A stretch of DNA of 40,724 nt from a virus: positions 1-40,724 of IMG/VR virus record IMGVR_UViG_3300031885_000046. One strand, given 5' to 3'. This document shows positions 4,398 to 19,196 of the stretch, piece by piece (position 1 is the stretch's first letter; each line of letters begins with the position of its first letter). The position numbers and the translations under genes were made by a program. A model generated the notes under the pieces. It was not told the DNA's origin. It saw only the letters and a list, made by a program, of their open reading frames with translations, and ran no database searches.

Positions 4398-6433
4398 ACC
4401 ACTCCTTTCGAAATCTGCCTTCTCCGGTCTCCCTGATCCCGTAAAATAACTTTCACCCCACCATGATATTCCGGATCGGCCAGGGCAAATGCAATAACCG
4501 TCGCATCGAGTAAGTGATTCGCCTGTTTTTTCCGTATCCAGGCCGATTTTCCGTCTTTTTGGATCCTCTTCTCTTCCGCCAATAAATGATTAAGATACTC
4601 TTCATCGGTCTGGTTATGAAATGTGAAGAGACCGCTGATAGTCCTTTTTCTAAATTCAACTTGGCATTTTCCGCAAGAGAGCGACTCACCGGATAATATC
4701 TCTAATGTTTTGAATTTGTTCATTGTGTGACACTTCGGACATTCGTAATTATTTCTTGATAGATGAAACCAGAGAGCGTCCTTCATCATATCGGTGTTGA
4801 TTTCAAGAAGGATAACTCCGCCGGGGATTACTCTTCCTTTATCTCCCGGCATCTTCTCAATCCGGCTTTCTTTGACGCGGTGCGTCGAAGCGTGGGACAT
4901 CCCTTTCGTTCCAATCAATCCGGGTCTCTTCATTCTCCGTATAAAATCATAAGCCGCCGCGGTCATCGTCGTATCCACGGTCTCATATTGCCCGCCGCCC
5001 GTATCGATCCCAATTCTCCAGATCATAAATTGTCTATCCTCACCATCGATGCGATAAGTCCAGTGAGAAACCAATTTTTCCAGTTCGCTGGTATCATAAT
5101 CACCGGCGAGCCATCCGTAATGAACGAGATGAGAGCTCATATCAGGTTTCCATGCAATTATTGAAAACCAAAATCCTCCCTGTCCGGGATCGATTCCGCA
5201 TGTGAGAGCCACGGTATCTTTGGGACAGATCAATGGAGCCAGGTTGATCTTGTTTTTCATCAATTCCAGTTCCGTTTCCGAAAATACCACTTCTTCCCAG
5301 GGCCTGGCGGCATTATACATTCTCCAGTTCCGCATCGGTGCAAAGTCCTGGCCCCCTTCCAGTTTTTGATTCGCTTCAAGAAAGTCCTTTGCGATAATCC
5401 CGAATGTCCCCCCACTGAAAGGCGAATACCATTTTGGAAGATGGAAGCCGATCTTTTTGACTCGTCTGTCACTAAGCACATCATCGAGGGGTATCGTCTC
5501 TTCGGTCTTTGCCCGGATATTCTTCATAATCTGCTCACACGGATCCGGAATCAACCTCGCCCTCCATTCCCCTTTTGTGAGCATTCGGATCTTATCCATA
5601 TTCGATATCTTGCCCTGACAGGCTTCGCATTCATACCAGGCGATCTCCTCGACCACAACCGGATCATGGTCATCACCGAACCGGACATTCTCCCAGTAAA
5701 GGATTTGTATCACGCCACAATGGGGACAGGGAATCCAGTATTCAAAAACATACCGGCAACTTTTGAGTGCCTGCCAGATATTGCCTTCCGGCGCAGTAGG
5801 TGATGAAGCGAGGATCTCCTTCCGGTTTGAAAACGTTGTTGTAGTTTGCTCGATCCCCTTGATCGGATCGATCGCATGTTCACCGACCGCTTTTTTTATT
5901 TCATCCGCTTCATCCACGATTAAATACCGGTTTGACCTCGTCGTGGTTTGGCTCTCCGATCCTGCCCAGGCCATCGCCAGGACCATCGTCACAAAATTCA
6001 TCCGGAGTTTTGTATAGTCATCCGGATTGTCAGGTATTCGTTTCCGGATCTCTTCACAGGCCTGAAAAATCGGATCCAGTTTCGTTTCAAAATATTCCTT
6101 CGCTTTATCCCGGGTCGGCAAGAGAAAGGTTGCAGGACCTGGATCCTGCGCGATCACGTAAGAAATATATGGACATAACACCCCCATGGTTTTCCCAAGT
6201 TGTCGTCCCCAAACTAAAATAATCGTTTCGACAAAAATATTTTCGAGCGCCCGAAGCGGACCTTTGGTATAGGGAGTCCGGGAAATCCGGAGCAATCCGG
6301 GTTCCGCCGCCATCTTCTCCGAGAGCCGAACATTTTTTTGAATCCATTCCGGAATGGAAATGTCATCCGGTGGCCGCACCCTGTTTTTGATCTTGTTTAG
6401 AATATCGATTCTTAATTGTTGGTTTGGGTGCAT
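4394..6433 (-). CDS. Terminase large subunit, GpA family
   Basis: The packaging motor ATPase and nuclease. From the ATG at 6433 it is 679 residues (lambda gpA is 641); the open frame continues 93 codons further upstream but that part is the shadow of the small-subunit gene. Visible motifs: ATPase Walker A VWGRQLGKT (about residue 73-81), Walker B RYLIVDEADE (about 170), a coupling region, and nuclease-type acidic motifs LTCGIDPGQGG (about 414) and RIGIDTGGG. Two CxxC pairs (CPHC/CEAC and CPKC/CGKC) suggest structural zinc sites, as in many GpA terminases. It overlaps the small subunit by 71 bases, as a coupled pair. Confidence 0.93.
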   Translation of the reverse strand: MHPNQQLRIDILNKIKNRVRPPDDISIPEWIQKNVRLSEKMAAEPGLLRISRTPYTKGPLRALENIFVETIILVWGRQLGKTMGVLCPYISYVIAQDPGPATFLLPTRDKAKEYFETKLDPIFQACEEIRKRIPDNPDDYTKLRMNFVTMVLAMAWAGSESQTTTRSNRYLIVDEADEIKKAVGEHAIDPIKGIEQTTTTFSNRKEILASSPTAPEGNIWQALKSCRYVFEYWIPCPHCGVIQILYWENVRFGDDHDPVVVEEIAWYECEACQGKISNMDKIRMLTKGEWRARLIPDPCEQIMKNIRAKTEETIPLDDVLSDRRVKKIGFHLPKWYSPFSGGTFGIIAKDFLEANQKLEGGQDFAPMRNWRMYNAARPWEEVVFSETELELMKNKINLAPLICPKDTVALTCGIDPGQGGFWFSIIAWKPDMSSHLVHYGWLAGDYDTSELEKLVSHWTYRIDGEDRQFMIWRIGIDTGGGQYETVDTTMTAAAYDFIRRMKRPGLIGTKGMSHASTHRVKESRIEKMPGDKGRVIPGGVILLEINTDMMKDALWFHLSRNNYECPKCHTMNKFKTLEILSGESLSCGKCQVEFRKRTISGLFTFHNQTDEEYLNHLLAEEKRIQKDGKSAWIRKKQANHLLDATVIAFALADPEYHGGVKVILRDQGDRRRQISKGVV

Positions 6434-6878
6434 GTAGTGGCTTCGCCATTTGTTCCAAATAATAATTATGCTCTTTGCGAAGAAGCATTTCGATTTCTTT
6501 TTGATCTTTACATAGCACAAGAGCGGGCGACAATCTTTTAGCCAAACCTTTAATTCCTTGAGAAAATTCAACAACCAAAATCGAAAGTATTTCCTCGAGT
6601 TGTTCCACCGGAATAAGTTTTTTTTCCATCTCTGCGGCCTTACATTCATCCTGTCTCCGTTTCGCCCGTTCTCTACGAAGTTTCTCCTGTCGAATATCGC
6701 CGTAATCGTCACGCGGGCTCCAAATATTGTTCCTGATCCAATGCAGACAGTTCTTTAACGGATAGCATTTCTTTTTCTTGTTGTAAGGGAGGCCCTTCTC
6801 CCTCCAATGCCGAAGCGTTTCCCGACTAATCGTGAGTAAATAAACCATCTGTTTTGAACTGATTTGAAATTCATTCAC
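6363..6878 (-). CDS. Terminase small subunit, Nu1-like
   Basis: 171 residues. The N-terminus MNEFQISSKQMVYLLTISRE with TLRHWREKGLPY is a winged HTH like that of lambda Nu1, which recognises cos DNA. A highly charged helical middle follows (RQEKLRRERAKRRQDECKAA) and then LEEILSILVVEFSQGIKGLA, as in Nu1-type proteins. It directly precedes and overlaps the GpA-type large subunit. Nu1-type systems usually cut at cos sites, so a cos site would be expected close by. Confidence 0.82.
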   Translation of the reverse strand: MNEFQISSKQMVYLLTISRETLRHWREKGLPYNKKKKCYPLKNCLHWIRNNIWSPRDDYGDIRQEKLRRERAKRRQDECKAAEMEKKLIPVEQLEEILSILVVEFSQGIKGLAKRLSPALVLCKDQKEIEMLLRKEHNYYLEQMAKPLHAPKPTIKNRYSKQDQKQGAATG

Positions 6879-6977
6879 ACTTCCCTACCTGCAATGGTCA
6901 ACCTGAAAAAAGTTTGGCTCGCACGTGAGGATTGCGGGTTTACGCGTCTCATCGGTCAAGGCTCCTGGAAGGACCCA

Positions 6978-7535
6978 TCATTTAAACTTCACCTTTGATC
7001 GTTTCTCTAATTGATCCCAAAAGATCCACTTAAAATAGGCCAGGACGTCCGAGGATGCGATATCCCATATGGCACCCCTCACTAATGCCGGGATAGATGG
7101 ACCACGATTCACTTTCCAACTGAGTGGATATCGTTCTTTCCCTGTGCGAATCATCGCGCCGGTCCAACCCTTTTTCGAGGTCCTGATAAATGCGTGAGGG
7201 ATTCGCATCGCATTGCGCTTTTGCACAAATGCCGTTACGCCTTTGGCATCTTGAACCGCGTGGAAATGATGATAAAGGGAAAGGATCTTTCCTTTTACTC
7301 TAAACATAATTTCATTGGATGTCTGGGTCGTTCGCACTATTTCTATCGCCTCTTTGGCCTTTGAAGTTTCAATATTATAATTGCTCGTAACCAGATCGAC
7401 AATCTGCTTCTTGCCAAACGTCGCCGATTGATCAAGGGCCGATCTCATTGCCTTTCGAATCAGATCGCCGCTAAAGGTTTGTCTGAGATCCTCGAGGCCT
7501 TCTAATTTTAAATCCATCTTGAAAAGTTGAGCCAT
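6978..7535 (-). CDS. Minor tail protein Z-like
   Basis: 185 residues. The order LRQTFSGDLIRKAMRSALDQ, then FGKKQIVDLVTSNYNI, followed by beta-rich FRVKGKILSLYHHFHAV, IRTSKKGWTGAMIRTGK and a C-terminal basic helix, fits prophage minor tail protein Z (GPZ family), which helps tail completion. In lambda, Z lies between FII and U. Here that place (35.57 kb) has no Z and the gene sits upstream of Nu1 instead. The ribosome site AAAGGAGG-like precedes the start at 7535. Family identification is from pattern memory and is moderately certain. Confidence 0.65.
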   Translation of the reverse strand: MAQLFKMDLKLEGLEDLRQTFSGDLIRKAMRSALDQSATFGKKQIVDLVTSNYNIETSKAKEAIEIVRTTQTSNEIMFRVKGKILSLYHHFHAVQDAKGVTAFVQKRNAMRIPHAFIRTSKKGWTGAMIRTGKERYPLSWKVNRGPSIPALVRGAIWDIASSDVLAYFKWIFWDQLEKRSKVKFK

Positions 7536-12089: not shown

Positions 12090-12383
12090 ATGTATATCAG
12101 GGTTATTGTTTTTATTTGGATTATTTCCTCTCTTGTTTCATCGTCGGCATGGGCACAATATTACAAATGTGACACGGACAAGTTAACCCAAGGAATGGCT
12201 ATAAGTGAGGTAAGAAATATTTGCGGAAGACCTCACCACGTCAACAGATATGGAAGTTCATCCGGAGATACTGAACAATGGGTCTATAAAGAAGGCCGCC
12301 TCCAGGAACTCTATCTTTATTTTGATAACGGGCTTTATACTGGAATTTTTCAAAGATTTGGAGAGAAAAGAAGGCTACCATAA
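12090..12383 (+). CDS. Secreted DUF2845/BamE-like small protein
   Basis: 97 residues. Residues 1-23 (MYIRVIVFIWIISSLVSSSA then WAQ) form a signal peptide with a likely cleavage after AWA. The mature part has YYKCDTDKLTQGMAISEVRN, ICGRPHHV, WVYKEGRLQELYLYFDNGLY, the 'G.s..EV...CG.P ... W.Y ... yF.nG' pattern of DUF2845 and SmpA/BamE-like folds, with two Cys that could form a disulfide in the periplasm. It lies 4 bases after the repressor, in the place of lambda rexAB, so it is probably expressed in the lysogen and alters the host envelope (lysogenic conversion). Confidence 0.72.
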   Translation: MYIRVIVFIWIISSLVSSSAWAQYYKCDTDKLTQGMAISEVRNICGRPHHVNRYGSSSGDTEQWVYKEGRLQELYLYFDNGLYTGIFQRFGEKRRLP

Positions 12384-12450
12384 TGATTTCGGAGAAGAAT
12401 TTTTCTTTAATAATAGGTATTTAGAAAACTCAATATTTTTTTGTCAATAG

Positions 12451-12510
12451 TGATGATTATTAGTCATTTTTTTCTTGACAAAGGTTTTTGAATATGATAA
12501 TTCTACATCA
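12451..12510 (+). promoter_or_regulatory. Rightward early promoter (PL-like) with operators
   Basis: -35 TTGACA (12475-12480), 17-base spacer, -10 TAATTC (12498-12503). TGATAATTCTACATCA (12495-12510) has the same TGAT-N8-ATCA form as the dyad over the leftward promoter and also covers the -10. A second near-match, TGATGATTATTAGTCA, lies upstream at 12451-12466. It drives the gene at 12529 and the long rightward unit. Confidence 0.7.
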
Positions 12511-12528
12511 ATACAAGAGGAATCTAAA

Positions 12529-12633
12529 ATGGCAAACCAATCAAAGATTAAAATCCCTGGTATCTGGGCAGCGGTTTATGAAGCCCTAAGGGCTCTCAAA
12601 AGATTAGAGACCAAATGGGCAACCGGCCAATAA
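12529..12633 (+). CDS. Very small first gene of the rightward operon
   Basis: 34 residues, beginning MANQSKIKIPGIWAAVYEAL and ending TKWATGQ. AAGAGGAA precedes the ATG at proper distance, and it is the first open frame after the rightward promoter, about 20 bases into the mRNA. An amphipathic helix occupies most of it. The position is that of lambda N, but it is not Arg-rich, so an N-type antiterminator role is not supported. Confidence 0.5.
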   Translation: MANQSKIKIPGIWAAVYEALRALKRLETKWATGQ

Positions 12634-12659
12634 AGGGAAAAACAAGGGAGGTGATAAAA

Positions 12660-13000
12660 ATGATGAAAAGAATTTATATGGATCTTATAGAAGAGAATTA
12701 TTTGAGATTCAAAGTTTTGGCAAAAGCTGATAAGCGAACCATGAAAGATTTTCTTTTATACATCGTCGATGCTGCGAAAACAAAACCTCAAAGATCTATT
12801 TTAAAAACCACGTCCGAGCAGATCGTCAGGGATTTTCGGATGAATGAGGGATTCAATACCTATGAAGCAGCCCGGTCATTGAGGCCGCTCTGCAGGGGGA
12901 TCCGAAGACCCTTCTTTTTGATTCGATGGTTCAGGGCGATCATTACGAAGAGCTCGAGATCCAGAAGTGGATCCTCGGGATGATCCTCGAGGAATCCTGA
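12660..13000 (+). pseudogene. Ribbon-helix-helix-like gene with an apparent -1 frameshift
   Basis: The frame from ATG 12660 (GGAGGTGAT upstream) begins MMKRIYMDLIEENYLRFKVL then ADKRTMKDFLLYIV, a CopG-like ribbon-helix-helix pattern, and continues to NEGFNTYEAAR near 12875. From there the same frame turns into Arg/Ser-rich nonsense ending at 12983. The frame at +2 instead gives VIEAALQGDPKTLLFDSMVQ, GDHYEELEIQKWILGMILEES, ending at 13000. That reads like a natural C-terminus and has no start of its own. Restoring one G in the CCCGG run at 12871-12875 would fuse the two. It is therefore a mutation, an assembly indel or, less likely, a programmed shift. Confidence 0.6.
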
Positions 13001-13013
13001 AAGGGGAAAAATC

Positions 13014-13223
13014 ATGATCTATAAAGTCTATTTTAAAAATTATCTGCATGGTTCGGTCTCCCTCATCGGCGTACTCCCGGAAAAGCGGGAAACCCTGAGA
13101 GGTTTGACTCTCATCGCTTCCGGCCTGAAGTGGGCAAAATCGATGTTTGGAGGCCTGGTAAAAGACGCGTATGCATTGTTCATTATTCCATCTGATGAAA
13201 ACAAAGGAGGGCATCATGGTTGA
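13014..13223 (+). CDS. Small hypothetical protein
   Basis: 69 residues, MIYKVYFKNYLHGSVSLIGV then LPEKRETLRGLTLIASGLKW. AAAGGGGAAAA precedes the start, 13 bases after the previous stop. It looks like a compact alpha/beta protein with a beta-hairpin N-terminus; no family recognised. Its stop overlaps the next gene. Confidence 0.55.
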   Translation: MIYKVYFKNYLHGSVSLIGVLPEKRETLRGLTLIASGLKWAKSMFGGLVKDAYALFIIPSDENKGGHHG

Positions 13224-13440
13224 ACTGCGGATGCTTAACGGCGGGCCGAACTTCACCGTCATAGAAACATTCAATGGCCAGGGGATCCTGATCGCCCCCG
13301 GCATTCGCCGGGAATTTGGGAGCCTGGAAGAATTGAAAACTCAGATCACAGAGCTCGGGATTCAGATCAACGTAACCCACATACACGGATTCTCAGTTTT
13401 ACGAAGGAGGGAAAACGAAAACAGGAGTCATCCTGCATGA
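13216..13440 (+). CDS. Small hypothetical protein
   Basis: 74 residues from MVELRMLNGGPNFTVIETFN. The ATG at 13216 lies after AAAGGAGGGC, overlapping the preceding gene by 8 bases. The body has GILIAPGIRREFGSLEELKT then QITELGIQINVTHI, alpha/beta in character. It is followed 19 bases later by the first GGCNN array. No family recognised. Confidence 0.55.
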   Translation: MVELRMLNGGPNFTVIETFNGQGILIAPGIRREFGSLEELKTQITELGIQINVTHIHGFSVLRRRENENRSHPA

Positions 13441-13459: not shown

Positions 13460-13556
13460 GGCATGGCGGGGCTCGGCGTGGCGGGGCTCGGCGCGGCGAG
13501 GCAAGGCGTGGCGCGGCATGGCTCGGCTGGGCATGGCAAGGCAAGGCGAGGCATGG
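13460..13556 (+). repeat. GGCNN pentamer array 1 (19 units)
   Basis: Nineteen consecutive 5-bp units, each GGC plus two variable bases, then a final GG, with no slip in phase. The NN series is AT GG TC GT GG TC GC GA AA GT GC AT TC TG AT AA AA GA AT. It begins 19 bases after the stop of the gene at 13216-13440 and ends in an A/T-rich stretch. Period five excludes a protein-coding reason. A GG every five bases also fits the two-layer G-quadruplex pattern G2N3. Confidence 0.95.
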
Positions 13557-13576
13557 ATATAAGAAGACAAAAGGTT

Positions 13577-13621
13577 GATAGGAGACCCGAAACCTATCCG
13601 ATGACCCCTAAAGATTGAGGG
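13577..13621 (+). other. Hairpins after array 1
   Basis: GATAGG (13577-13582) can pair with CCTATC (13593-13598), and CCCCT (about 13605-13609) with AGGGG (about 13618-13622). They occupy the 131-base stretch between array 1 and the next gene. No U-tract follows, so they are not clear terminators. Confidence 0.35.
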
Positions 13622-13687
13622 GAATTCCAAAACCTAAACGTGATCAAGCGAAGCATAGACTTCCGGGCATCACAAAAAAGGTGAAAA

Positions 13688-14263
13688 ATGGAAGAGACTC
13701 AAATTCATATTGTAACTGAAAGTTTGGCGGATATTTTGTTTGATCAATTTTTTGATCATAGCAAAGAGCCGAGACCACCGGAACAGAAGTTTTATCTCGG
13801 CGAGAAGAACCAGATAATGTTTCCCGCCCTCAATATTATGGCCTTTCTCTTTAATCAAAAGGGGAATTCCTGTGTGACCAAATTCGAGGGTAAAAAGAGA
13901 GGAGATTATATTTCAATGGGTTTCTCGCACATCTTTATCAACCCCCAGCTGATCCCATTCAGGGGAAAAGACCAAAAACCCGTCTTCTTTACCGATTTCG
14001 ATAACGGTCCATTCTACATTGTCAGGGCGGCTCCCACGACAAAGATGCCGGGAGGAGGTTTTATCAAACAGGAGGCCAAACCAAGACCGGCACTCAAAAT
14101 ACCCTGGAGTTTGGAATTTCAAATCACCCTTTACAAAAATCCTCTCATCAATGACGTGAAGCTTCGGAACTGGTTCGAGATGGGCGGGCTCTTGATTGGC
14201 TTTGGCACCTATCGGCCCCTGTTTGGCAGATTCAGAATAAAAACATGGGAAAAGAAAAATTAA
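13688..14263 (+). CDS. Hypothetical protein between GGCNN arrays 1 and 2
   Basis: 191 residues beginning MEETQIHIVTESLADILFDQ. It is alpha/beta with a hydrophobic, ordered centre (NQIMFPALNIMAFLFNQKGN, GDYISMGFSHIFINPQLIPF) and a C-terminal segment LRNWFEMGGLLIGFGTYRPL then FGRFRIKTW. The ending 'G..iG.yRP..GRF.i..W' recurs in phage hypothetical proteins, but I know no function. AAAGGTG precedes the ATG. It is the larger of two genes enclosed by arrays; base composition (about 45% GC) is unlike the GC-rich arrays beside it. Confidence 0.7.
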   Translation: MEETQIHIVTESLADILFDQFFDHSKEPRPPEQKFYLGEKNQIMFPALNIMAFLFNQKGNSCVTKFEGKKRGDYISMGFSHIFINPQLIPFRGKDQKPVFFTDFDNGPFYIVRAAPTTKMPGGGFIKQEAKPRPALKIPWSLEFQITLYKNPLINDVKLRNWFEMGGLLIGFGTYRPLFGRFRIKTWEKKN

Positions 14264-14275
14264 AGATTGTTTCGC

Positions 14276-14352
14276 GGCAAGGCGGGGCCAGGCAAGGCAT
14301 GGCTTGGCTTGGCGTGGCGGGGCAGGGCGTGGCGAGGCGAGGCATGGCATGG
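14276..14352 (+). repeat. GGCNN pentamer array 2 (15 units)
   Basis: Fifteen in-phase units from 14276 to 14350, then GG. NN series: AA GG CA AA AT TT TT GT GG AG GT GA GA AT AT. It starts 12 bases after the stop of the gene at 13688-14263. The unit order is not shared with array 1, so one was not simply copied recently from the other. Confidence 0.95.
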
Positions 14353-14368
14353 TCTTTAAAATCTCTTT

Positions 14369-14398
14369 GGTTAGTCGAAGCTCGAACTTCGGTTGACC
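14369..14398 (+). other. Perfect 12-bp RNA hairpin after array 2
   Basis: GGTTAGTCGAAG (14369-14380), loop CTCGAA, then CTTCGGTTGACC (14387-14398). As RNA all 12 positions pair, with several G-U pairs, which implies that RNA rather than DNA structure is kept. It ends 15 bases before the next start codon and could control access to its ribosome site (AAAGGA). Confidence 0.6.
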
Positions 14399-14413
14399 GG
14401 AAAGGAAAACAAA

Positions 14414-14677
14414 ATGGATCGAGATTCAGAAATGACAAGAGGAATGGCTGAAGAAGGAGCAAAGATCGTTCTGGAATATCTCAAGGGAACCAAAGAGGTG
14501 AGCGACAAAGTAAAGATCGCCATGGCGTCCGTCCATGTCCACGTGAAAATGAAAGCAACGGAAGCCAACGACGACACGAACCGTCTGGGTCTGGCGAAGT
14601 TGGTTTACAACGATCCCAAGGCCCGCGAAACCTACATCAAAAAGTCGATGCCTCATATGATGATTGAGAAGAAATAG
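14414..14677 (+). CDS. Small hypothetical protein between arrays 2 and 3
   Basis: 87 residues from MDRDSEMTRGMAEEGAKIVL. The ATG at 14414 has AAAGGA seven bases upstream; a TTG at 14393 lies inside the hairpin and is unlikely. The sequence is amphipathic helix (GAKIVLEYLKGTKEVSDKVK), then IAMASVHVHVKMKATEANDD and a basic tail. No family recognised. Its stop lies 6 bases before array 3. Confidence 0.6.
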   Translation: MDRDSEMTRGMAEEGAKIVLEYLKGTKEVSDKVKIAMASVHVHVKMKATEANDDTNRLGLAKLVYNDPKARETYIKKSMPHMMIEKK

Positions 14678-14683
14678 ATTCGG

Positions 14684-14770
14684 GGCTGGGCACGGCGGGG
14701 CTTGGCTAGGCCCGGCGTGGCCAGGCAAGGCTGGGCAAGGCAAGGCGAGGCAAGGCAAGACATGGCGAGG
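14684..14770 (+). repeat. GGCNN pentamer array 3 (17 units)
   Basis: Seventeen in-phase units from 14684 to 14768, then GG. NN series: TG AC GG TT TA CC GT CA AA TG AA AA GA AA AA AT GA; the sixteenth unit is GACAT, the only departure from GGC in the three arrays. It begins 6 bases after a stop codon. The last units resemble those of array 1 (TG .. AA AA GA). Confidence 0.95.
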
Positions 14771-14845
14771 GTTTTATTTTGATTTTCTTTTAGCCCTCTT
14801 TCTTTAGAACAAAGGGAAAAATGAGAGATAAATTCCTCTACATCC

Positions 14846-16617: not shown

Positions 16618-17214
16618 ATGAACATCGATGCGTCGAATCTTGAGAAGAAGTTGATTGAATGGTCCGTAAACAATTCCGGATATGACGAGCACCGGGATTA
16701 TATTGGCCTCTCCACCCTCGCCGATTGTTCCCGCATTATCTATCACCGCTATTTCAACCGGGTCGGCTTGGCAAGAGAAGGCCATCTCAAAACCCGATAT
16801 TGTTATGAAGTTGAGGAAAACATCAAGGAGAGATTCCGGCGAATGGGTCTCTACTCCCCTGAGAAAGAAATCTCGATTTTCGATGGCCTCGTCAAGGGGC
16901 ATACGGATGGAGAGATATTGGGGTACCTCCTCGAGATCAAAACAGTCCCGGAGACGGATCATATCCCAAGATGCTCCGTTTATATCCCGGGAAAAGTATA
17001 TTGGCAGGTTCAGGCGTACATGCTTTACGGATCGTATAATCGGGCTTTTCTGATTTACCTCGCCAGAAAATTTGGTCTGTTTCGCGTTTTTATCGTTACA
17101 CGGGATGAATCGCTACAATCCAAAATCAATATCAGGGTCAACGATCTCGTTGAAGCAGTGAGGCGGCGAAAGATCCCGGCCTGTGAGTGTGGAAAGTGTG
17201 AGAAAAAGGGATGA
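16618..17214 (+). CDS. Cas4-like Fe-S PD-(D/E)XK nuclease
   Basis: 198 residues. The nuclease motif is HTDGEI (Asp97) ... LLEIKTV (Glu106, Lys108) followed by QVQAYMLYG (QxxxY type, residues 130-134), as in RecB/Cas4-family exonucleases. Cys37 (LADCSR) with Cys189, Cys191 and Cys194 (ACECGKC) gives the one-plus-three layout that holds a 4Fe-4S cluster in Cas4 and AddB. No CRISPR array or other cas gene is present, so this is a phage recombination nuclease, likely paired with the annealing protein at 9660-10592. It is coupled to the next gene by ATGA. Confidence 0.8.
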   Translation: MNIDASNLEKKLIEWSVNNSGYDEHRDYIGLSTLADCSRIIYHRYFNRVGLAREGHLKTRYCYEVEENIKERFRRMGLYSPEKEISIFDGLVKGHTDGEILGYLLEIKTVPETDHIPRCSVYIPGKVYWQVQAYMLYGSYNRAFLIYLARKFGLFRVFIVTRDESLQSKINIRVNDLVEAVRRRKIPACECGKCEKKG

Positions 17215-17588: not shown

Positions 17589-19196
17589 ATGGAAATTTCA
17601 TATGAGATAATCCCGATTGAGAAGATCCACGTCTCCCCATTCAACCCGCGGCATCATGTGAACGAAAAGGCATTCCGGGAACTGGTTGAGAGTATCCGGA
17701 AAGTTGGGGTCCTCACCCCGCTGCTCGTCCGGCCGAACATGTCGGCACGGGATGGCTATGAGATTGCCGCCGGCCATCGGCGTTATAACGCTGCCAAAGA
17801 GATCGGCCTGTCCTCAGTCCCTGCCATCATCCGGGAGATGAATGATATCGAATTCCTCGAGATCATCACGATCGAGAACCTCCAGAGGGAAGACGTCCAT
17901 CCCCTCGATGAGGCCCAGGGATACCGGACCTTGATGGAAAAGGCCGGTTATGACGTAGCTGTGATTGCGGCAAAGGTCGGAAAAAGCGAGTCCTATGTCT
18001 ACCAGCGGCTCAAACTTGTCGAACTCATCCCGGAAGCCCAGAAGGCTTTTGCGGATGAAAAGATTACGGCCGGGCACGCGATCCTCATCGCCCGGCTCCA
18101 GCCCAATGATCAGAAGAAAGTGTTGGAAGATGGACTCCAAGATGATTTTGGAGGAAAAGAGATTGTAAGTGTCCGCGAGCTCGCCGATTATATTGAAGAG
18201 CAGATCCATCTCGATTTGAACTCAGCTTCATTTTCGAAGAAGGATCCCGATCTTTTACCGGGGGCAGGGCCCTGTACAATCTGTACGAAGCGGACCGGAT
18301 TCGTGCCGGCACTCTTTCCGGATATCAAGAAGAAGGATACATGCACGGATCCGGAATGTTTCCACGCCAAAGTCCAGGCCTTCATCGATAACTGGCTGAA
18401 GACCAAATCACAGGACAGCGACATCCCTCCACTGAAACTCGATGCCAATTATGATTACCGCAAAAAAAAGATACCGGAGGATCCTCAGACTCCGATCCCG
18501 GCCAGTTTCTACAGTGAGATTACCGATAAGCGAAAAGGGAGTTGCGAACACGCCAGGGAGGGCATCATCGTCGAAGGTCACTCCAAGGGGAAAGTCCTCA
18601 CTGTCTGCGTCGACCCTACCTGTAAAACCCATCGCGGCCGGTCCTCGTCAACAGGATCCGATCCGGAGATGGCAGCATATCACCAACGACAAAAGACGGA
18701 ACAGGAGAAAAGAAAAACGGAGGAGACGGTGCGCCTCCGGATCGTGGACGCTATCATAGCAAAGGTCCCGAAGGAACTTTCGAAGGACGATTATATTTTT
18801 CTGGCCGGCCAGTTTTTTGCCCAACTCTGGGAGGACTACCGGAGACGAATCGCGGCCCGCCACGGAATTCAGCCGATCAAAGAACAATATACCCGGGATT
18901 ATCAAAAGCCGATGCGAAAATATATCGGCGGACTTGATAAGATCGCCCTGCAGTGCCTTCTCATGGAGATGAGTCTCATCCGCAATCTCCCAGAACCATA
19001 CTCCGGCAGCCGGAGTGAAGACCCCCTGATTGAGACAGCGAAGCGATATCATATCGATCCGAAAGGGATCGAGGCCGAGGTCCGGAAAGAAACTAAAGAG
19101 AAGAAAACCAAGAAAGTGCACACGTCTGCAAAACGGAAAGAGAAAAAATGGGGGTTTCATTTTAATTTACCTTTAGTGAGCGGAAATATTTTCTGA
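17589..19196 (+). CDS. ParB-like DNA-binding protein
   Basis: 535 residues. The ParB/Spo0J N-domain is clear: IEKIHVSPFNPRHHVNEKAF, GYEIAAGHRRYNAAKEIGLS (nucleotide-binding box GHRR), ITIENLQREDVHPLDEAQGY (ENLQR box), then an HTH (VIAAKVGKSESYVYQRLKLV). Residues about 210-270 hold zinc-type cysteines (CTICTKR, DTCTDPECFHAK). The C-terminal part is long and charged. Homologues occur in phages and integrative elements; roles include partition and transcription control. The C-terminus (WGFHFNLPLVSGNIF) looks like readthrough past a former stop near 19147. TAGGAGG precedes the start. Confidence 0.85.
   Translation: MEISYEIIPIEKIHVSPFNPRHHVNEKAFRELVESIRKVGVLTPLLVRPNMSARDGYEIAAGHRRYNAAKEIGLSSVPAIIREMNDIEFLEIITIENLQREDVHPLDEAQGYRTLMEKAGYDVAVIAAKVGKSESYVYQRLKLVELIPEAQKAFADEKITAGHAILIARLQPNDQKKVLEDGLQDDFGGKEIVSVRELADYIEEQIHLDLNSASFSKKDPDLLPGAGPCTICTKRTGFVPALFPDIKKKDTCTDPECFHAKVQAFIDNWLKTKSQDSDIPPLKLDANYDYRKKKIPEDPQTPIPASFYSEITDKRKGSCEHAREGIIVEGHSKGKVLTVCVDPTCKTHRGRSSSTGSDPEMAAYHQRQKTEQEKRKTEETVRLRIVDAIIAKVPKELSKDDYIFLAGQFFAQLWEDYRRRIAARHGIQPIKEQYTRDYQKPMRKYIGGLDKIALQCLLMEMSLIRNLPEPYSGSRSEDPLIETAKRYHIDPKGIEAEVRKETKEKKTKKVHTSAKRKEKKWGFHFNLPLVSGNIF

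Follow-up and report, generated by a model that had tools for sequence, protein, structure and literature searches.

The window, a stretch of 40,724 nucleotides that makes up positions 1 to 40,724 of IMG/VR virus record IMGVR_UViG_3300031885_000046, contains three arrays of GGCNN pentamers. We consider it very likely (probability about 0.93) that these arrays serve as guide tracts for three vrRNAs, belonging to a VIPR locus of a temperate tailed phage; the targeting step is inferred. VIPR (Viral Interference Programmable Repeat) has been described in Escherichia phage SUSP1 and in a Pseudomonas fulva prophage (PMC13142463, the preprint bioRxiv 2026.04.26.720920; PDB code: 36pp). It is a CRISPR-like, RNA-guided system that combines a phage-borne RAMP protein with vrRNAs of 9-16 GGY/NN pentamers, which end in a 3' tail. 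Double-stranded DNA is read by pairing with the NN dinucleotides, one base being skipped per unit, and competing phages and prophages are thereby repressed in a programmable way (PMC13142463). Thus, this is a kind of system that is already named, with a mechanism published in April 2026, and the window adds another locus to it. The literature on GGCNN arrays yielded nothing relevant, and the name was reached through the protein only. The phage setting is given by the IMG/VR record and by genes for a repressor, an integrase, a terminase, a tape measure and a Mu-like gpT head protein. The best phage matches are below 30% identity, and in the search for a host the terminase reached at best 34% identity in 297 genomes from the phylum of a Desulfobulbaceae MAG.

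The three arrays and their tails

Perfect in-phase GGCNN runs lie on the plus strand at 13460-13554 (19 units), 14276-14350 (15 units) and 14684-14758 (15 units). The third array goes on past 14758 with GACAT GGCGA, which brings it to 17 units and an end at 14768. A GG comes directly after every array, and with these two bases the putative guide tracts of vrRNA 1, vrRNA 2 and vrRNA 3 span 13460-13556, 14276-14352 and 14684-14770. The original prediction had given the sizes of 19, 15 and 17 units exactly, and its end points are those of the trailing GG. Our recount agrees with it that all units are in phase on the plus strand with GGC in 50 of 51, that C takes position 4 in 3 of 51, and that 19, 12 and 6 bases separate the arrays from the preceding stop codons, which end at 13440, 14263 and 14677. 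Other runs of four or more GGCNN units are absent from the rest of the window and from the minus strand. In-phase runs never exceed 3 units in 100 order-2 Markov windows of matching composition, so a chance origin of the arrays is excluded. An Rfam search of the window and 12 loci matched no family, and a scan of the array region for promoters and terminators gave no more matches than were seen in shuffles.

The likely 3' tail of vrRNA 1 (13557-13640, plus strand) contains the stems GATAGG/CCTATC and CCCCT/AGGGG, closed by AGGTT/AACCT, with an MFE of -18 and a z of -1.93. About 120 nt downstream of this array are nearly invariant in L439, a near relative, though the array itself differs; the counterpart stretch there folds differently. 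The tail of vrRNA 2 is a hairpin at 14353-14410 (plus strand), formed by GGTTAGTCGAAG/CTTCGGTTGACC (MFE -17, z -2.59). In L439 a T-G pair of this stem has become C-G and an A-T pair G-T, so that pairing is kept. After vrRNA 3, the region at 14771-14815 of the plus strand has an MFE of -12.3 and a z of -0.37, and a tail structure is unsupported there. A tail fold common to the three vrRNAs of the window was not found. Across the viral loci, among the matches listed, the last units of arrays are rich in AA, AG and GA, with AA making up 29% at the penultimate unit against about 8% in mid-array. Because of this enrichment, the final units may be tail and not guide.

The proteins of the cassette

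The order of the locus is vrRNA 1, vipr, vrRNA 2, a candidate vap (VIPR accessory gene) and vrRNA 3. The vipr gene (13688-14263, plus strand) encodes a Cas7-like RAMP protein of 191 aa that belongs to phrog_4652. Its family was found by an all-against-all comparison of the proteins that neighbour arrays: among the matches listed, one dominant family of about 200 aa is present in 88 of 117 loci, on the same strand and at a median of 34 bp from the array. The 72 aligned members gave no Pfam match, and 71 of them match phrog_4652, a group of unknown function. A profile of the family finds the PDB chain 36pp_D, "SUSP1 Vipr protein", with an E value of 6.7e-40, far above every other chain. The window protein by itself matches SUSP1 Vipr weakly (E 0.025), so that its identification as Vipr goes through the family profile.

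Structure prediction agrees with this assignment. AlphaFold2 models the window protein with confidence (pLDDT 93.9, pTM 0.88), and the best 50 Foldseek matches of this model in the PDB all belong to CRISPR effector complexes that contain Cas7-type RAMPs (Csm, Cmr, Cas7-11, types IV and VII). A viral structure library gave three significant matches, one of which is labelled "Cas system-associated RAMP superfamily protein". The Vipr of VIPR systems is a single-domain Cas7-like RAMP with a G-loop; in the window protein the conserved G-rich motif of the family is the C-terminal GFGTYRPLFGRF. As a control, the profile was run over viral and cellular loci. It recovers Vipr in 88 of the 120 viral loci, whereas the 110 genome loci in which GGCNN forms simple tandem repeats have no Vipr nearby; it is near 5 of 10 scrambled arrays of cellular genomes, or 7 of 10 when the whole genome is searched (all among the matches listed). 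Between the window and L439, vipr has 0.03 nonsynonymous against 0.57 synonymous changes per site, and the gene is therefore under purifying selection.

The open reading frame between arrays 2 and 3 (14414-14677, plus strand) encodes 87 aa and is probably helical. It differs from its L439 counterpart by 0.05 nonsynonymous against 0.56 synonymous changes per site, which again argues for purifying selection. A homologue in the locus L125 is 30% identical and also lies between two arrays, there upstream of vipr. There is no Pfam match for this protein, and its AlphaFold2 model, built from 3 sequences, shows helices only at a pLDDT of 67.5, too weak for a fold search. We regard the gene as no more than a candidate vap of the VIPR locus.

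Related arrays and the NN letters

The comparison with L439 separates what is kept from what is replaced. The Vipr protein of this locus is 93% identical to that of the window, and array, vipr, array, small open reading frame and array follow each other in the same order. Window positions 13477-14755 and L439 positions 5785-7059 are 84% identical in DNA, and the homology begins and ends within the outer arrays, so that phages seem to swap the cassette as one unit with arrays at its borders. The arrays of L439 have 14, 12 and 13 perfect units, compared with 19, 15 and 17 in the window. Its first tract sits in the same place as vrRNA 1, with unrelated NN letters, and for the three arrays the NN agreement between the loci is no better than for shuffled units (P 0.38, 0.48 and 0.91). 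Selection thus holds GGC, phase and tails while the NN letters are replaced, as is expected of guides. Outside the cassette, a 535-aa ParB-like protein is encoded at 17589-19196 of the window, part of which is common to L439 at about 71% DNA identity; a ParB-like neighbour (FAM9) directly adjoins the arrays in some other VIPR loci.

We scanned IMG/VR and a collection of cellular genomes for ten in-phase GGC units and obtained at least 120 IMG/VR matches. Among the matches listed, the NN letters are scrambled in 295 of 316 viral arrays and in 16 of 139 arrays from cellular genomes, where the others are simple tandem repeats. With gapped chaining, at least 406 scrambled arrays were found in at least 116 viral loci plus the window. 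The original prediction had put the arrays on the strand of the genes, and had named random places and strands in other genomes as evidence against its idea. Such randomness is not seen among the matches listed: of the 94 loci that carry more than one array, 93 have every array on the same strand, and for 168 of 211 array clusters both flanking genes share the strand of the arrays. Likewise among the matches listed, 92 of 179 clusters start no more than 30 nt from a stop codon. The genes around the clusters were called with a simple gene caller made for this purpose.

Several loci depart from this picture. In L151-L270, many of them Actinomycetota, near-identical simple GGCNN tandem repeats have no Vipr nearby; this is a different phenomenon with the same pattern. 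In some loci a 4-nt GGCA unit interrupts the arrays every 39-59 nt. In L072 (8676-9093), L099 (5277-5556) and L124 (3293-3469) this unit shifts the phase and leaves blocks of about 8-12 pentamers; such arrays are perhaps the "staggered arrays" of the preprint (PMC13142463). Arrays antisense to both neighbouring genes occur in L051 (1383-1422 and 10438-10586), L094 (6169-6228), L126 (4566-4615 and 8258-8322) and L144 (5346-5410). They are mostly without Vipr on the examined stretch, though L144 has one elsewhere, and in most cases a terminator-like hairpin comes immediately afterwards; these arrays have the look of vrRNA genes that stand on their own. In Listonella phage phiHSIC (L438 2060-2948; AY772740, about 12169-13058), ORF22 is a likely Vipr relative with a weak match (E 6e-3). 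Three arrays follow it with the pentamer GCANN, not GGYNN, and they overlie ORF21, which is annotated on the minus strand but is probably no real gene.

The NN letters themselves resemble genomic DNA. In a set of 3624 units, N1 is associated with N2 (chi-squared 87, 9 degrees of freedom), and the pattern correlates with the genomic bias of adjacent dinucleotides (r 0.74, permutation P 0.005). The association is much weaker for letters paired across GGC, with a log-odds spread of 0.058 against 0.16 for N1-N2. Taken together, this favours NN letters that are copied as neighbours, with consecutive units non-adjacent in the source; by themselves, these statistics do not establish a skip of exactly one base. 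The viral arrays, too, seldom have C at N1 (among the matches listed). We read this as a sign that GCC, which could pair with GGC, is avoided and that the guide would thereby be kept unstructured.

Searches for natural targets found none. Six xNN patterns of 8 or 9 units from the window guides had only chance-level matches in IMG/VR, and natural targets of these guides were not found among the collected array loci. The perfect skip-3 matches seen among those loci are arrays matching themselves and carry no target meaning. When 255 arrays were compared with about 1.1 Mb of VIPR-bearing loci, skip-1 matches showed no excess over shuffled guides or other skips. Two Dokdonella guides, with up to 2 mismatches allowed, had no match in 234 genomes of the Dokdonella family. 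The DNA searched for targets may exclude the rivals of these phages.

Proposed mechanism, rival readings and known systems

By analogy with the published system (PMC13142463), we propose how the locus may work, from loading through the one-base skip and DNA binding to repression. The tracts would be read as RNA from the coding strand. Most likely, one Vipr subunit would load onto each pentamer and grip its GGC, leaving each NN dinucleotide to pair with target DNA. Consecutive NN pairs would lie one skipped base apart (xNNxNN...), so that a 19-unit guide would read a gapped target of 57 bases. Binding would most likely repress genes of competing phages or prophages, or flip their lysogeny switch.

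Other explanations of the arrays have to be weighed against this proposal. TRAP, the trp RNA-binding attenuation protein, binds about eleven repeats of (G/U)AG-NN, a triplet with a two-nucleotide spacer. The arrays could thus be binding tracks for a TRAP-like ring protein, acting in cis as an attenuator or stability element on the mRNA. Their period of 5 and triplet-plus-two layout match the TRAP target, and they are intergenic and on the transcribed strand. However, the triplet is GGC and not (G/U)AG, and the associated protein is Cas7-like in fold, not TRAP-like. In addition, TRAP spacers are uninformative, and neutral spacers would drift, whereas here the spacer letters are wholly replaced between near relatives with all else kept, the number of units has changed, and the NN letters carry the genomic dinucleotide bias. 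We therefore regard a TRAP-like element as very unlikely.

We give hardly any credence to two-layer G-quadruplexes of DNA or RNA, one of the suggestions of the original prediction. A GG every 5 bases allows such folding in principle, but position 3 is held as C with the same strictness as the GG, and neither the rigid phase nor the presence of a RAMP protein beside the arrays would be explained, while the Cas7-like partner accounts for the period. Moreover, the simple GGCNN repeats of cellular genomes are without Vipr. Hypermutable slippage repeats with no guide role, possibly serving as recombination borders of a phage cassette, are also extremely improbable. The cassette is common to the window and L439 only between the outer arrays (window 13477-14755), so the arrays do coincide with module borders. 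Yet the unit order is scrambled without a majority NN, as the original prediction had noted against recent slippage, the arrays keep to one strand, Vipr adjoins them, and GGC is held across the family.

What that prediction had said of selection on GGC spacing holds, since GGC is kept both in L439 and across the family. Its protein-binding RNA was the right class of answer. It has to be revised in that the arrays are now read as guide RNAs beside the vipr gene instead of 3' untranslated elements, the last two bases of each unit, said to vary freely, as guide letters, and the form, for which it knew no named element, as the VIPR vrRNA (PMC13142463).

The VIPR reading also has support that is independent of the preprint: the family-wide co-orientation of the arrays, the Cas7-like protein that accompanies them and is missing from a clean negative control, the complete turnover of the guides between near relatives and the NN dinucleotide bias. 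With at least 120 IMG/VR matches to one strict pattern, sequence alone shows that uncultivated phages commonly carry VIPR guide arrays. This suggests that (GGCNN)n with scrambled NN could serve as a simple detector of VIPR loci.

The window shares with the published VIPR a profile-homologous RAMP protein, same-strand GGY/NN tracts beside vipr, several guides per locus, a phage-borne setting and hypervariable NN letters. It differs in that its tracts have 15-19 units, two of them exceeding the stated range of 9-16 (PMC13142463), in that its units are GGC only, without GGT, in that vipr sits between guides 1 and 2, and in that its candidate accessory protein has no recognised domain. These differences could define a VIPR subtype that has not been described before. 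It would be a self-contained cassette in which long strict-GGC guides of 15-19 units flank each gene, the small helical accessory protein has no likeness to the DNA-binding or enzymatic vap genes, and the arrays are the borders of exchange between phages. We find such a subtype unlikely.

With the Cas7 filaments of Class 1 CRISPR (Csm3, Cas7-11, Cmr, type IV and type VII), the locus has the Cas7-type RAMP fold in common, and there the guide is likewise read with periodic skipped bases (PMC13142463). Class 1 CRISPR-Cas itself was rejected, as the cassette consists of two open reading frames and pentamer arrays only, without CRISPR repeats and without other cas genes. A phrog match at 16618-17214 labelled "CRISPR/Cas system associated" was also set aside, being a RecE/YqaJ/Cas4-like exonuclease. 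The two kinds of guide differ in their period as well: the window has a pentamer with two reading bases, whereas Class 1 CRISPR Cas7 works with a six-base period and five reading bases.
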